Positions 46,622 through 63,877 of a stretch of DNA of 64,000 bases are shown in pieces. The notes under the pieces are model-generated. The model had not been told where the DNA came from. It saw nothing but the letters and a program-made list of their open reading frames with translations, and did not search any database. A program made the translations under genes and the position numbers. Position 1 is the first letter of the stretch, and every line of letters starts with the position of its first letter. Source of the stretch: a virus; IMG/VR virus record IMGVR_UViG_3300044695_005756, positions 30,519 to 94,518 of that record; one strand, given 5' to 3'.

Positions 46622-47344
46622 TCAATCCCAAAGTCCTCTGTAGTATTTACCAAATAAACGAAAACCGTTATCCATACGATCATAAACTTTTTTCATGCCA
46701 TCGTAATCACATTCGTATGTGTGATTTGGTCCGTGTTCAAATGTGTAGAGTATTGGTTTACCATCTGCATCCCATTCACACGGCACAGAATGTGTATCAA
46801 TATTACCCGAACGATATGCTTCTTCCCACGAATCGTCAATGAGGTGTTCAAATGCAAAAATCATTTCATTCAACACCCATTCCCAACGACGATGTGTGAT
46901 GTCCCAAGATTTTTTTTGAAATTCTTCATCATCTTCAAACTTCAATTCAAGTTGGGAAGAACAATCGTCATAACCACTAATACGTAGTTCTTCTGGCACA
47001 TCTTCTGTATCAACTAGTGGTGAACCGTGTTTAGTATCACGCAACTGTTTCAACATCGGCAAAACGATCATACCTAATGTGTGATCCATTGACCATGTGT
47101 CATACTTGTCAATGCGTATTTTGATTTTGCGCTTCTTGTACTCTTCAATCTTTTGGCAAACTTTAGTCAACCAAGAGTCGTTACCGTTTCGATCTTCTGC
47201 AAGCCATGTACCAAAGTCGTGAACCCAATCAGGCTTTCGTGAAAAGCCACACTCATCGGGTACTTTCTTTGCCCAGAAGCAAAGTAAGTCTGCTAATTGA
47301 TAGGGACCGAACCAGTTTGTATAAGGACCAATGTTTACTTTCAT
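46622..47344 (-). CDS. Conserved marine phage protein of unknown function
   Basis: 240 aa from the ATG at 47344 (MKVNIGPYTNWFGPYQLADL). Other conserved segments are KIKIRIDKYDTWSMDHTLGM, IVLPMLKQLRDTKHGSPLVD, WEWVLNEMIFAFEHLIDDSW and NGFRLFGKYYRGLWD. Similar proteins are frequent in marine phages without known role; Trp/Tyr/His-rich motifs suggest an enzyme or binding protein, but no family is assigned. An upstream start at 47407 would run into the tmRNA and is rejected. Confidence 0.82.
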   Translation of the reverse strand: MKVNIGPYTNWFGPYQLADLLCFWAKKVPDECGFSRKPDWVHDFGTWLAEDRNGNDSWLTKVCQKIEEYKKRKIKIRIDKYDTWSMDHTLGMIVLPMLKQLRDTKHGSPLVDTEDVPEELRISGYDDCSSQLELKFEDDEEFQKKSWDITHRRWEWVLNEMIFAFEHLIDDSWEEAYRSGNIDTHSVPCEWDADGKPILYTFEHGPNHTYECDYDGMKKVYDRMDNGFRLFGKYYRGLWD

Positions 47345-47358
47345 AATGTATCTCTGAA

Positions 47359-47650
47359 TTTGGTGTAGGGTGTTTTGGTAATAAGGTACACCCCACTTAA
47401 ACCCCATGAGAGTTACGCTGCTAGGCGTTCTTCTCCGTAAAATGCATCGTTTGCATTTGTAGATTTGCTTGATTTACAGTCATCGCCTACTGTGTTGCCT
47501 TCTCCGCTATCTCACCCTGTCGAAGCCATGTCATCCCCATCAAAAGTATTCTCACGGTTTATCTTTCCGTTCCCAACTCCATGGACAAGAATACTTTTGG
47601 TGGAGATGCCGGGGATCGAACCCGGGTCCAGAATGCCTTCACTTTGAAGG
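47359..47650 (-). ncRNA. ssrA: Circularly permuted two-piece tmRNA (ssrA)
   Basis: Transcribed leftward. The acceptor part comes first: T-arm CCGGG-TTCGATC-CCCGG, then CATCTCC-A-CCA ending at 47598. About 59 nt later the coding part begins at 47538 with GGGGATGACATGGCTTCGAC. GGGGATG pairs with CATCTCC in a 7-bp acceptor stem with the G3-U70 pair that marks alanine tRNAs. The tag reading frame is downstream (47413-47454). The intervening segment (47539-47597) has a 10-11-bp inverted repeat (47542-47552 with 47588-47598) that would hold the two ends together before processing. The outer ends (hairpins at 47362-47393 and 47636-47650) are approximate. tmRNA rescues stalled ribosomes. Confidence 0.9.
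47413..47454 (-). other. tmRNA proteolysis tag reading frame
   Basis: Resume codon GCA at 47454-47452 opens ANDAFYGEERLAA and ends at TAA 47415-47413. The AND start and the LAA end are standard for tmRNA tags; the LAA end is the ClpX recognition signal in known systems. Confidence 0.9.
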
Positions 47651-47809
47651 AGTTACAACAATTCCGTCTTCTTGCATTATTGCATCAAATTCATTTTTTC
47701 TTGCTGCATACCAACCCCATGCACCAAAGAATGTTGTGCCTGGATTAGAACCACATTCTTTCAAGTATGCTTCAAATCTTTCGTAATAATCTTGTTCACT
47801 AATTTGCAT
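47639..47809 (-). CDS. Small hypothetical protein abutting the tmRNA
   Basis: 56 aa (MQISEQDYYERFEAYLKECG, then GTTFFGAWGWYAARKNEFD). It starts 2 nt after the stop of the upstream gene. Its last codons and TGA form part of the hairpin at 47636-47650, so the coding region overlaps the presumed 5' edge of the tmRNA acceptor piece. Function unknown. The tight spacing supports it being real. Confidence 0.6.
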   Translation of the reverse strand: MQISEQDYYERFEAYLKECGSNPGTTFFGAWGWYAARKNEFDAIMQEDGIVVTPSK

Positions 47810-47811
47810 AA

Positions 47812-48342
47812 TTACTCTGTCGTAAATCTTGCAGAACCTTTGCTCGTTCTACCGGGCTTCAACGGCTTGTCAGACTTCGGTTTTGTTTCTGTTTGAAATG
47901 GTACATGTGACTTATTGAAAGCCATTTTACCTACATTCTCCGTCTTGCCATGTCCTGGGAATCCCGTTTTGTTTGTTCCGTGCAGGGTCGCCGTTTTTCC
48001 ATCATGATGTAAGATTGAGTCTTGATTATAATGTTCTCCATGTTTTTTAACATCATGGAGGAGTTGTTTTCCGTGTTCTTCACCTTTGCCTTTGGCATGT
48101 ACAAGTATTGATTTTTCTTTTCCACCTTCCCAATGTCCTTCTACTTCTTTATGTGTATAACCTTGTGAGGTCAGTTTCTTTTTTAGTTCTTCGTGATGCT
48201 TTTTATTTTGTTCTGGCGACACTTCATCATGTGGTCGCTGTGAAGAAAGAATTGCATAATGACGACCTTCTTCCGCATGTTTAGCCAATCTTGCTAATGG
48301 ATTGCCTTCATCTAGTTGTGTATGTTGTTTGAATGATAGCAT
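47812..48342 (-). CDS. Hypothetical His/Lys-rich protein, DUF3293-like features
   Basis: 176 aa. The segment HYAILSSQRPHDEVSPEQNK, HEELKKKLTSQGY, VEGHWEGGKEKSILV and QDSILHHDGKTATLHGTN resembles the layout of DUF3293-type proteins found in phages (S-x-R ... N ... L ... G-x-W-x-G-x-E-x-S). Very hydrophilic, with Lys/His-rich low-complexity C-terminus. Function unknown; the resemblance is from memory and weak. Confidence 0.7.
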   Translation of the reverse strand: MLSFKQHTQLDEGNPLARLAKHAEEGRHYAILSSQRPHDEVSPEQNKKHHEELKKKLTSQGYTHKEVEGHWEGGKEKSILVHAKGKGEEHGKQLLHDVKKHGEHYNQDSILHHDGKTATLHGTNKTGFPGHGKTENVGKMAFNKSHVPFQTETKPKSDKPLKPGRTSKGSARFTTE

Positions 48343-61342: not shown

Positions 61343-61416
61343 TGGAGCGGGATATCAGAATCGAACTGATAACAGGAGCTTGGAAGGCTCACGTTTTACC
61401 ATTAAACTAATCCCGC
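61343..61416 (-). tRNA. tRNA-Gly(UCC)
   Basis: Acceptor GCGGGAT/ATCCCGC, discriminator U, CCA encoded; anticodon TCC in CTTCCAA. Confidence 0.93.
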
Positions 61417-61423
61417 GTTTGAT

Positions 61424-61714
61424 TTACTTGATAAGGATTTCTTTGCGTTCTACATCTTCACCTGATGGATGATGATATGCAATATATCCATCTTTGTCTT
61501 TGTATGTTACGCCAGCCCAAAAATAATCTTTGTCTTTGAAGTATGCAATTCGTTCATCGGTGTATTCATTGATATCAACTTTCATGCATCCGAGCCATTC
61601 TTGCCAATTGTCATCAGCATACTCAGAAATTTTTACTGCTTCTTCTTCAGAATCGGCTTCAATGACATAAACATTTCGAAAAACGGACAATTGTTCAACA
61701 ATATACTTAGGCAT
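61424..61714 (-). CDS. Hypothetical protein
   Basis: 96 aa from the ATG at 61714, with GGGGAG Shine-Dalgarno 5 nt upstream; a GTG at 61720 is less likely. PKYIVEQLSVFRNVYVIEAD, SEEEAVKISEYADDNWQEWL and a beta C-terminus. Its start overlaps the stop of the DUF2693-like gene. No function assigned. Confidence 0.68.
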   Translation of the reverse strand: MPKYIVEQLSVFRNVYVIEADSEEEAVKISEYADDNWQEWLGCMKVDINEYTDERIAYFKDKDYFWAGVTYKDKDGYIAYHHPSGEDVERKEILIK

Positions 61715-62000
61715 TTTCACTCCCCAATGAAAAATGAACTTCTTTAATTGAATCCCAACGAAAAGAACGCCAACCTTCTTTTTCTAAATCATAAACTGCA
61801 AGAGTTTCATCATTTTTCGGTCTATCTGAGCCTACAGTTTCAGGAAGAAATTTTTCCATCAATGTACATTTCATTGTACGTTCAGTTCCGTCTTTTTTTG
61901 TGAAAATCACTTCAACTGGAGACTGTTCTAAAAGACCAATCAGCCATTCACGACCAATTCTTGCATCTTCTGTATTACCTGAAAAAACATTTGGATTCAT
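61707..62000 (-). CDS. DUF2693-like small protein
   Basis: 97 aa. REWLIGLLEQSPVEVIFTKK, DGTERTMKCTLMEKFLPE, and EGWRSFRWDSIKEV fit the short SH3-like DUF2693 fold found in several phages. Function unknown. Confidence 0.7.
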   Translation of the reverse strand: MNPNVFSGNTEDARIGREWLIGLLEQSPVEVIFTKKDGTERTMKCTLMEKFLPETVGSDRPKNDETLAVYDLEKEGWRSFRWDSIKEVHFSLGSENA

Positions 62001-62003
62001 AAT

Positions 62004-62438
62004 TTACTCCGCTAAAGATTTTAACGCTTCATTGACTTTTTTCTTGAATGTACCATTTGTAATGAAATCAAGATACTCAGTCCACCAATTATCTGACTGC
62101 TCAGTCTTTTTGACGATACAACCTGATATTCCTGAACCCACTAGATTTTTTATATACACTAAAGGATCAACTAAAATGGCTTCAAACGCATCTTCAAACT
62201 CAGGCATACCTTCTTCGTTCTCTTTAAAAAATGCCATATGATATTTGTAGCCCATTTCAGACTTTTCAATCGGTTCCGCTTGTGTCCATTCTTCTTTAAA
62301 GTTAAAAAACGCTAATTTATAGTTTTCCTCAAAGTCATCATAGTCAGGAACAAAGTAAAAACCATCAAATTTACTCATTTCATCGCCGTTTACACTTTCG
62401 GCTTCAGCTTTTTGCAACTTTTCATCAGAAGAAGGCAT
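62004..62438 (-). CDS. Hypothetical acidic protein
   Basis: 144 aa, acidic. FYFVPDYDDFEENYKLAFFN, FKEEWTQAEPIEKSEMGYKY and VGSGISGCIVKKTEQSDNWW. No recognisable motif. Three nt before the DUF2693-like ATG. Confidence 0.65.
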   Translation of the reverse strand: MPSSDEKLQKAEAESVNGDEMSKFDGFYFVPDYDDFEENYKLAFFNFKEEWTQAEPIEKSEMGYKYHMAFFKENEEGMPEFEDAFEAILVDPLVYIKNLVGSGISGCIVKKTEQSDNWWTEYLDFITNGTFKKKVNEALKSLAE

Positions 62439-62586
62439 AGTTTTTCCGTAAATTTTGTTTTTCGGCTGCTCGACTGTAAAAATTTATCGCAGAATGTTCA
62501 ATTTTCATCCGATATTTCGGTGTGAATAAGTCTTTTGCGACAAAATTTCGCGGCTTTTGCAATTTTTTCGTGTTTTTCGTACTCAT
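62425..62586 (-). CDS. Small basic protein
   Basis: 53 aa from the ATG at 62586 (MSTKNTKKLQKPRNFVAKDL, FTPKYRMKIEHSAINFYSRA). Directly below a strong promoter; stop overlaps the next gene's start. Probably nucleic-acid binding by charge; no family. Confidence 0.65.
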   Translation of the reverse strand: MSTKNTKKLQKPRNFVAKDLFTPKYRMKIEHSAINFYSRAAEKQNLRKNYAFF

Positions 62587-62596
62587 GATAGACTCT

Positions 62597-62625
62597 ATTA
62601 TGTCAGAAAACTCAAATTTTGTCAA
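62597..62625 (-). promoter_or_regulatory. Sigma70-like early promoter
   Basis: TTGACA (62620-62625), 17-nt spacer, CATAAT (62597-62602), just upstream of the ATG at 62586 and just after the tRNA-Ser gene. Confidence 0.75.
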
Positions 62626-62631
62626 TTATAA

Positions 62632-62723
62632 TGGCGGTAAGTGTGGGATTTGAACCCACGGAACGTATTTCTACGCTCGACGGTTTAGCAAACCGCTGAT
62701 TTAAGCCTCTCATCCAACTTACC
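62632..62723 (-). tRNA. tRNA-Ser(GCU)
   Basis: Acceptor GGTAAGT/ACTTACC plus CCA, anticodon GCT in TTGCTAA, long variable arm of about 19 nt (GAGCGTAGAAATACGTTC region). Its 5' end overlaps the stop of the SGNH hydrolase gene. Confidence 0.92.
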
Positions 62724-63123
62724 GTGTCTGATCCGCAAGTTTTTTGTAACCTTTTCCAGTAGGATGTACACCATCCGCACTAATATCACTCTCTGGTCGA
62801 GAAATTACTACATCTCCAAACTCTGCTGCGACTTGTTTTACTGCTTCTACTTGTTTTGGCTTCAATTTTTGACTCGGTAAAAGCCAAAAAACTTTTTGTG
62901 CTTGTGCATTTGTTCGTAATGACCGAATATTTCCTTCTGTGTTGATACCTAAATCATTTGCACCAAGACTGATAATCAAAGTTTTTGTCGGTTGTAGTTT
63001 ATTCATATAGATTTTATTCCAATTATGTGAATTGATACCACTCTTCACATATGCAACACACTCCCTACGAACTTGACTCACACCAACACCGATGCTATCA
63101 CCAACAATTAAACATTCTAACAT
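62719..63123 (-). CDS. SGNH/GDSL hydrolase
   Basis: 134 aa. Catalytic Ser block VGDSIGVGV (S10), Asn block GANDLG (N56) and the D-x-x-H block DGVHPTGKGY (D117, H120). The Gly block is partially visible (SGINSHNW). Esterase or deacylase on cell-envelope or virion glycans is possible. The last codons and TAA overlap the 5' end of tRNA-Ser by 5 nt. Confidence 0.85.
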   Translation of the reverse strand: MLECLIVGDSIGVGVSQVRRECVAYVKSGINSHNWNKIYMNKLQPTKTLIISLGANDLGINTEGNIRSLRTNAQAQKVFWLLPSQKLKPKQVEAVKQVAAEFGDVVISRPESDISADGVHPTGKGYKKLADQTR

Positions 63124-63138
63124 AATTTTTCCTTTAAA

Positions 63139-63226
63139 TGGCGGAAGCGGTGAGATTCGAACTCACGGATCATTTCTGATCGGCAGTTTTCAAGACTGCT
63201 GATTTAAACCACTCATCCACACTTCC
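63139..63226 (-). tRNA. tRNA-Ser(UGA)
   Basis: Acceptor GGAAGTG/CGCTTCC, CCA encoded; anticodon TGA in CTTGAAA; long variable arm (CGATCAGAAATGATC). Confidence 0.93.
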
Positions 63227-63231
63227 CTAAC

Positions 63232-63309
63232 TGGAGCAACGGGTCGGATTTGAACCGACGGTTTTAGAGTTTTGCAGACTCTTGCATTGGGCCACTCTGC
63301 CACCGTTGC
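63232..63309 (-). tRNA. tRNA-Cys(GCA)
   Basis: Acceptor GCAACGG/CCGTTGC, discriminator U, CCA; anticodon GCA in CTGCAAA. Confidence 0.92.
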
Positions 63310-63314
63310 ATAAT

Positions 63315-63389
63315 TGGTGCATCGTGATGGATTCGAACCACCGACAACCTGCTTGTAAGGCAGGGATTCTACCGCTGAACTAACGATGC
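63315..63389 (-). tRNA. tRNA-Val(UAC)
   Basis: Acceptor GCATCGT/ACGATGC, ACCA end; anticodon TAC in CTTACAA. Confidence 0.92.
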
Positions 63390-63413
63390 ACAGCCTCACA
63401 CGCGATACTTATA

Positions 63414-63489
63414 TGGTGCGCTAGGAGAGATTCGAACTCTCAAAATTTGGTTTCTAAGACCAACACGTATACCGTTCCGTCACCAGCGC
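63414..63489 (-). tRNA. tRNA-Leu(UAG), short variable arm
   Basis: Acceptor GCGCTGG/CTAGCGC, ACCA end; anticodon TAG in CTTAGAA; T-arm GAGAG-TTCGAAT-CTCTC. The variable region is only 5 nt (ATTTT) where tRNA-Leu normally has a long arm. Confidence 0.82.
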
Positions 63490-63490
63490 A

Positions 63491-63565
63491 TGGTAGTAGT
63501 GGTAAGATTCGAACTTACACCTGACACCGTATGAAGGTGGCGCACTACCGTTATGCTACACTACC
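63491..63565 (-). tRNA. tRNA-Met(CAU), elongator type
   Basis: Acceptor GGTAGTG/CACTACT with a G-U first pair, ACCA; anticodon CAT in TTCATAC. Initiator hallmarks (unpaired C1, three G-C anticodon-stem pairs) are absent. Confidence 0.85.
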
Positions 63566-63567
63566 AT

Positions 63568-63641
63568 TGGTTGTCCCGACAAGAATTGAACTTGTAATGG
63601 TCGATTATCAATCGACAGTTATACCATTTAACTACAGGACA
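63568..63641 (-). tRNA. tRNA-Ile(GAU)
   Basis: Acceptor TGTCCTG/CGGGACA, ACCA; anticodon GAT in TTGATAA. Confidence 0.87.
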
Positions 63642-63645
63642 AAAT

Positions 63646-63720
63646 TGGGGTGTCTAACGGGTACCGACCCCGTACCTACTCTTTCACAGAGAGTAATGCT
63701 ACCACTACACCATAGACACC
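63646..63720 (-). tRNA. tRNA-His(GUG)
   Basis: Acceptor stem GTGTCTA/TAGACAC, encoded G-1 facing C73, CCA; anticodon GTG in CTGTGAA. Confidence 0.92.
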
Positions 63721-63722
63721 AT

Positions 63723-63796
63723 TGGCCTCGGTGGAGAGAATCGAACTCCCACATACGGTTTTGGAGACCGTGGTTCTGCCATTAAACTACACCGAG
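63723..63796 (-). tRNA. tRNA-Trp(CCA)
   Basis: Acceptor CTCGGTG/CACCGAG, discriminator G, CCA; anticodon CCA in CTCCAAA. Confidence 0.92.
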
Positions 63797-63801
63797 AAAC
63801 T

Positions 63802-63877
63802 TGGAGCGGATAGCCAGGCTCGAACTGGCGACATTTTGCTTGGCAAGCAAACATTCTACCAACTGAATTATATCCGC
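63802..63877 (-). tRNA. tRNA-Gly(GCC)
   Basis: Acceptor GCGGATA/TATCCGC, discriminator U, CCA; anticodon GCC in TTGCCAA. Confidence 0.93.

Follow-up and report, generated by a model that had tools for sequence, protein, structure and literature searches.

The intervening segments of two-piece tmRNAs are usually regarded as discarded spacers. Permuted tmRNA genes of this kind have been described in phages, including Methylophilales phage Melnitz; of the 133 distinct phage tmRNAs collected in 2021, 53 were predicted to be two-piece, nearly all of them aquatic (PMC9004378). The Melnitz tmRNA belongs to a bacterial lineage other than that of its host, and both ribosome rescue and tagging of host proteins have already been proposed as roles of phage tmRNA (PMC9004378). 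The tmRNA database contains 79 phage sequences of all forms, and mycobacteriophage DS6A has a tag-less tmRNA-like RNA that inhibits the endogenous tmRNA (PMC11915505).

The locus studied here lies in a window of 64 kb (the whole stretch of DNA that was analysed), which is part of a 94.5-kb virus contig, a metagenome fragment that is possibly incomplete. Its closest counterparts are the ssrA genes of Melnitz and Pelagibacter phage Mosig (PMC9004378), likewise T4-like aquatic phages (Kyanoviridae), with permuted tmRNAs at 113 and 94 bits. The tmRNA of Melnitz resembles alphaproteobacterial ones and is linked to a glutamine riboswitch, whereas that of the window is beta-like and has no riboswitch match. 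Also similar are the Stenotrophomonas phages (Marzo, YB07, Ps15 and others), which have the permuted gene within a tRNA cluster. The Marzo gene shares with ours an intervening hairpin (58 nt) with a closing stem; it differs in its tag, VAANDDSYTVRIAA, and in a core that is not recognised among the families found here. With the Rfam families RF04321 and RF01850 the window gene shares the acceptor-intervening-coding order, tRNA-like domain, G3-U70 pair, tag frame with stop and single 3' domain, and the arms of its intervening stem (AAGggCAUU) resemble bacterial arms. In contrast to bacterial beta tmRNA, it is phage-borne and encodes CCA where the beta consensus has CCc. Its tag has 13 residues and ends in RLAA, whereas bacterial beta tags mostly have 10 and end in ALAA, AIAA or AVAA, and its exchangeable intervening segment has 59 nt, compared with 24-50 nt in the bacterial segments read here.

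While two-piece tmRNA in phages is already known, a pool of swappable hairpins that also occur right after tRNA genes is apparently new; a literature search found no description of tmRNA intervening-segment exchange or of phage post-CCA hairpins. We conclude that the window probably holds a complete permuted beta-type phage ssrA gene, whose excised segment is a hairpin cassette with cores exchanged among phage tmRNAs and shared with post-tRNA hairpins.

Structure of the permuted tmRNA gene

ARAGORN called a permuted tmRNA at 47322-47690 on the minus strand, with the tag ANDAFYGEERLAA. Two Rfam models match at full length: RF04321 (tmRNA_permuted) over 47660-47413 with 150 bits against a gathering threshold of 47 (E = 9.9e-30), and RF01850 (beta_tmRNA) over 47702-47355 with 141 bits against a cut-off of 84. 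All three agree on a permuted tmRNA on the minus strand, which spans 47660-47355 and is of the betaproteobacterial type. The initial annotation had proposed a phage-borne two-piece tmRNA with the acceptor part before the coding part on this strand, and the covariance models and the T4-like contig bear it out; its coordinates, 47359-47650, are correct apart from the outer ends, which are less certain. Viral contigs L002, L126 and L127 carry near-identical copies, so the gene is neither a chance match nor a one-off assembly error. Its identity as a tmRNA is close to certain. The features of the locus are as follows.

47598-47660, minus strand: acceptor piece with P2 strand, T arm (GGGTTCGATCCCC), acceptor 3' strand CATCTCC, discriminator A and CCA (RF04321 and RF01850 alignments and sequence; 5' end predicted)
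47539-47597, minus strand: intervening segment of 59 nt, with a closing stem of about 11 bp, the conserved core TTGTCCATGGAGTTGGGAACGGAAAGATAAACCGTGAG and then GAT; family 0 (fold and cross-contig matches)
47413-47538, minus strand: coding piece with G1 at 47538, acceptor 5' strand GGGGATG, TGGCTTCGACAGGG, P2 strand and tag frame (RF04321 alignment)
47413-47454, minus strand: tag reading frame, GCA..GCG TAA, encoding ANDAFYGEERLAA and stop (ARAGORN and sequence)
47355-47412, minus strand: 3' domain of the coding piece, with a 9-bp stem (47396-47388/47373-47365) and CUUAUUACC loop (RF01850 alignment and fold)
47639-47809, minus strand: putative 56-aa ORF (MQISEQDYYERFEAYLKECGSNPGTTFFGAWGWYAARKNEFDAIMQEDGIVVTPSK), whose final 22 nt overlap the acceptor piece (translation)

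The acceptor part terminates in CATCTCC-A-CCA (47608-47598, the encoded CCA being 47600-47598). The coding part begins with GGGGATG (47538-47532), and the sequence from 47538 reads GGGGATGACATGGCTTCGACAGGG. As had been noted before, these two ends pair in a 7-bp stem (GC, GC, G3-U70, GC, AU, UA, GC; 47538-47532 with 47608-47602) and the tag follows. The tag frame has the resume codon GCA, the stop TAA and a predicted degradation signal, ...LAA. Downstream of the tag, the 9-bp stem GTGGGGTGT/ACACCCTAC (47396-47365) with its loop corresponds to the beta model's single 3' domain; a candidate pseudoknot pairing, UAAG/CUUA, 3' of the tag was spotted by eye only. The unusual part of the gene is the intervening segment, which the initial annotation overlooked.

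The intact parts make ribosome rescue with host SmpB, AlaRS and ClpXP the default reading. The tmRNA would be transcribed together with its neighbours, RNase P would cut before G47538, and 3' trimming would expose the CCA at 47598; the 7-bp acceptor stem and the P2 helix would then hold the two pieces together. Host AlaRS could charge the molecule via G3-U70, and with SmpB it would rescue stalled ribosomes and append ANDAFYGEERLAA, whose ...LAA end should send tagged products to host ClpXP. No SmpB was found in the 94.5-kb contig, which may be incomplete, so SmpB of the host would be required. Use by the phage in rescue or in tagging of host proteins is plausible.

Genomic context and host assignment

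The baseplate wedge, tube-cap and tail proteins of the contig are T4-like. By the 685-aa baseplate wedge protein, the nearest cultured relative is Melnitz (39.5% identity), followed by pelagimyophages and cyanomyophages. Directly upstream of the tmRNA is a gene for a predicted S-adenosylmethionine lyase (47812-48342, minus strand; PF23780, E = 2e-12). SAM lyases are known phage counter-restriction factors. The downstream neighbour encodes a phrog_11543 protein of unknown function. The putative 56-aa ORF had no match in a PHROG search; the DNA for its C-terminal part is conserved in related phages L006, L071, L128 and L129. An array of 11 tRNA genes (61343-63877, minus strand) reaches the contig end and is continued in the sister contig 3300042453_002018 (L205).

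Permuted tmRNA had initially been put forward as a host clue, and in that role it proved weak. It scored above cut-off in only 22 of 399 sampled Burkholderiales genomes, mostly with tags of the ANDxxxALAA/AIAA/AVAA type, and therefore the gene does not identify the host; an initial pattern search of genome contigs that required an encoded CCA gave no matches. In Melnitz the tmRNA lineage is not that of the host. No bacterial tag examined equals the phage tag, and the idea of a strong host marker was rejected. As a caution, the host of a phage cannot be read from its possession of a permuted tmRNA.

Permuted tmRNAs with aberrant tags were observed in several Burkholderiales genomes (L146, L149, L157, L158 and L175, with L158 from Herbaspirillum). 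One Herbaspirillum genome (L146/L158) has a second, standard tmRNA (L159, tag ANDNSYALAA) on the same contig, so its permuted tmRNA may be prophage-derived.

Exchange of intervening segments among phage tmRNAs

At least 120 viral contigs matched one degenerate permuted-tmRNA pattern, and ARAGORN called 118 permuted tmRNAs in 125 viral loci. Pairwise comparison of 106 distinct viral genes yielded 55 families of intervening segments at 85% identity. Nineteen of these families have several members, and most of the nineteen span more than one acceptor or coding cluster. Across the 106 genes, identity of the intervening segment correlates with that of the acceptor and coding parts at 0.31 and 0.24, respectively, as compared with 0.57 between acceptor and coding parts.

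The window's segment belongs to family 0, which was found in 14 other viral contigs, always within tmRNA. It is identical in L071, though the acceptor stem (GGGCTAG) and tag (ANDNYYAMAA) of that gene differ. A second phage group (L119, L121, L131) has family 0 segments 88-93% identical to other members of the window's group; the window segment itself is 88% identical to that of L131. The tmRNA bodies of the two groups are 56-69% alike, and their flanks have no homology within 6 kb; at the protein level, the whole loci have in common only a domain of about 85 aa (35-42%), which is not syntenic. Several other families are likewise common to contigs without any flank protein homology. Conversely, L099 and L063 share 97.8% identity over 3 kb, yet locally the hairpin core has been replaced and the arms kept. 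Exchange of intervening cores between phage tmRNA genes is thus well supported by sequence comparison, which shows the excised segment as a hairpin cassette and not a drifting spacer.

In a set of 29 distinct bacterial permuted tmRNAs, intervening segments resembled each other only where the coding parts were at least 86% alike, and cassette swapping in bacteria is not supported by this set. Arms resembling AAGNGCATT occur in bacterial beta tmRNAs too. Since bacterial permuted tmRNAs carry this general arm motif, the closing stem is ancient in the beta lineage. What is new is that cores are swapped and shared; within what was tested, core exchange and the relatives in tRNA arrays appear to be phage-specific.

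Conservation of stems and cores

Of 90 distinct viral segments, 88% were predicted to have a closing stem of 8 bp or more, as compared with 1.4% of shuffles. In family 2, 6 of the 12 pairs of this stem show compensatory change, and 95% of cells are paired versus 32-62% when the partners are slid. The invariance of the family 2 core is partly by construction, since the family was collected by core pattern; exact-pattern searching inflates core conservation in families 2 and 16. A comparison of 14 families chosen without regard to the segment avoids this effect. There, 43 of 314 arm positions differ compared with 28 of 524 core positions (p = 5e-5), a 2.6-fold higher variability of the arms, and 14 pairs have changed on both sides. 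Given this contrast and the compensatory changes, the cores look sequence-constrained: the stem appears mainly to need pairing, and the core appears to be held by sequence.

The cores of families 0, 2 and 16 were searched one by one for known relatives. Rfam returned only sub-threshold microRNA noise and the tmRNA or tRNA flanks, so none of the three, and hence neither the intervening hairpin nor its relatives, was identified as a known RNA. An origin in cultured phages or bacteria was equally rejected, with no match to the three cores in 50,697 phage records and none to the family 2 core in 399 Burkholderiales genomes. A search with a tRNA-Lys trailer hairpin gave only noise with E > 2. Unsystematic reading of the arms for integron attC core sites (RYYYAAC / GTTRRRY) revealed none. 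Nor was there support for the window's core acting as an antisense RNA on its own genome: the longest complementarity is 11 nt, the same as for shuffled cores.

Related hairpins in phage tRNA arrays

Exact-core scans of viral contigs outside tmRNA covered families 0, 1, 2, 4, 5 and 16. Families 0, 4 and 5 were found in tmRNA only, the few entries left unclassified by the filter being plainly readable as tmRNA; family 1 likewise occurs in tmRNA, its single unclassified match being cut by a contig end. Families 2 and 16 are also present in phage tRNA arrays, in about 12 of 31 and about 33 of 40 contigs, respectively, where many of the hairpins that their cores cap lie directly behind a tRNA CCA. 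The sister contig of the window phage, which is the contig of L002, has such a family 2 hairpin behind tRNA-Arg (L205). In the fetched loci, 47 of 796 tRNAs are followed by a long-stem hairpin at the CCA or up to 5 nt from it, as opposed to 1 in shuffled trailers; many of these loci had been retrieved by core patterns, so they are no random sample as regards tRNA arrays. The post-tRNA hairpins mostly use the tRNA's own CCA as first pairs and have the arm consensus CCATATWRAARCACATT...AGTGTGTTTCWATATGG in common, with cores that differ widely; this consensus is missing from a few AT-rich hairpins among the 47.

In one phage tRNA array (L194:11650-11770, plus strand), a hammerhead ribozyme bears the family 2 core on top of its stem III. 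The RF00008 score is 30.3 bits (E = 6e-5), below the cut-off of 48.5; stem I and an 11-bp stem III are present. It is the sole such match in the scanned loci, and the cores themselves, unlike RF00008, have no hammerhead motif.

A recurring hairpin with a GTGTAATCTCA loop lies just upstream of the cassette hairpins in the tRNA arrays of L201, L265, L267, L271 and L275, at positions where no tRNA was called. It may be a degenerate tRNA or a further element of the arrays.

Possible role of the cassettes and alternative explanations

At least two core families are common to tmRNA cassettes and to hairpins beginning at a phage tRNA's CCA. The closing stem of the cassette likewise begins at the CCA and mainly needs pairing; most likely it labels or shields the sequence 3' of CCA ends while phage tRNA and tmRNA transcripts are processed. 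The core is one of many distinct conserved RNA modules, most likely swapped by recombination through the similar stem arms. We tentatively suggest, at a little under even confidence, that phages of uncultivated bacteria carry a so far undescribed class of RNA hairpin cassettes at tRNA and tmRNA CCA ends, with pairing-only arms and many interchangeable cores that have a function of their own (e.g. protein binding, anti-nuclease protection or processing control), the permuted tmRNA intervening segment being one docking site. If phages indeed trade conserved cores there and behind their tRNAs, this slot has a function or is a site of mobility, and the cores form a collection of uncharacterised RNA modules available for experiments.

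The main rival is neutral swapping, in which only the hairpin is needed, frequent recombination at conserved tmRNA arms moves any spacer, and shared cores reflect recent exchange. It would explain why many unrelated cores serve equally well, why acceptor and coding parts are mosaic too, and why segments of families 6 and 13 are identical, arms included. We nevertheless consider it rather unlikely: the 2.6-fold excess of arm changes, with compensation, comes from a set not selected on cores, and members of one core family are found on stems of unrelated kinds (tmRNA, tRNA trailers and hammerhead stem III). The same contrast and re-use support a sequence-specific function of the cores, as far as sequence data can indicate one. 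More doubtful still are mobile DNA elements of the MITE or attC kind that target CCA ends, their arms being terminal inverted repeats and the core a passenger. The arm consensus around diverse cores in the tRNA arrays and the swap between near-identical phages (L099/L063) are compatible with such elements. However, no pair of empty and filled tRNA sites has been shown, no recombinase is linked, and within families the arms are more variable than the cores, while G-U and compensatory changes preserve their pairing, a pattern indicative of RNA structure.

Fusion of different tmRNA alleles by metagenome assemblers is the least probable of the explanations and, we believe, very improbable. Conserved stretches of 20-50 nt do flank the segment, and three of the four members of family 6 come from one metagenome; yet 20 exact acceptor-cassette-coding combinations are each present in at least two contigs, family 0 members come from different metagenomes, one cassette is common to two phage groups without flank homology, and the L099/L063 swap lies within a short segment that a single read could span. 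Only slightly less remote is interference of the phage tmRNA with host trans-translation, as with the DS6A RNA that inhibits endogenous tmRNA (PMC11915505). The lack of an SmpB gene in the contig would fit such a role. The tag frame ending in LAA, the G3-U70 pair and the full model match argue against it, as do viral tag variants, such as GEDRLAA and GDERLAA, in which the reading frame and the LAA end are retained.

Very long predicted tags of 23-33 residues, e.g. ANADTFDFSAMSFTGNTVRGAANESRFALAA, were observed in the viral permuted tmRNAs L016, L017, L024, L034, L053 and similar ones.
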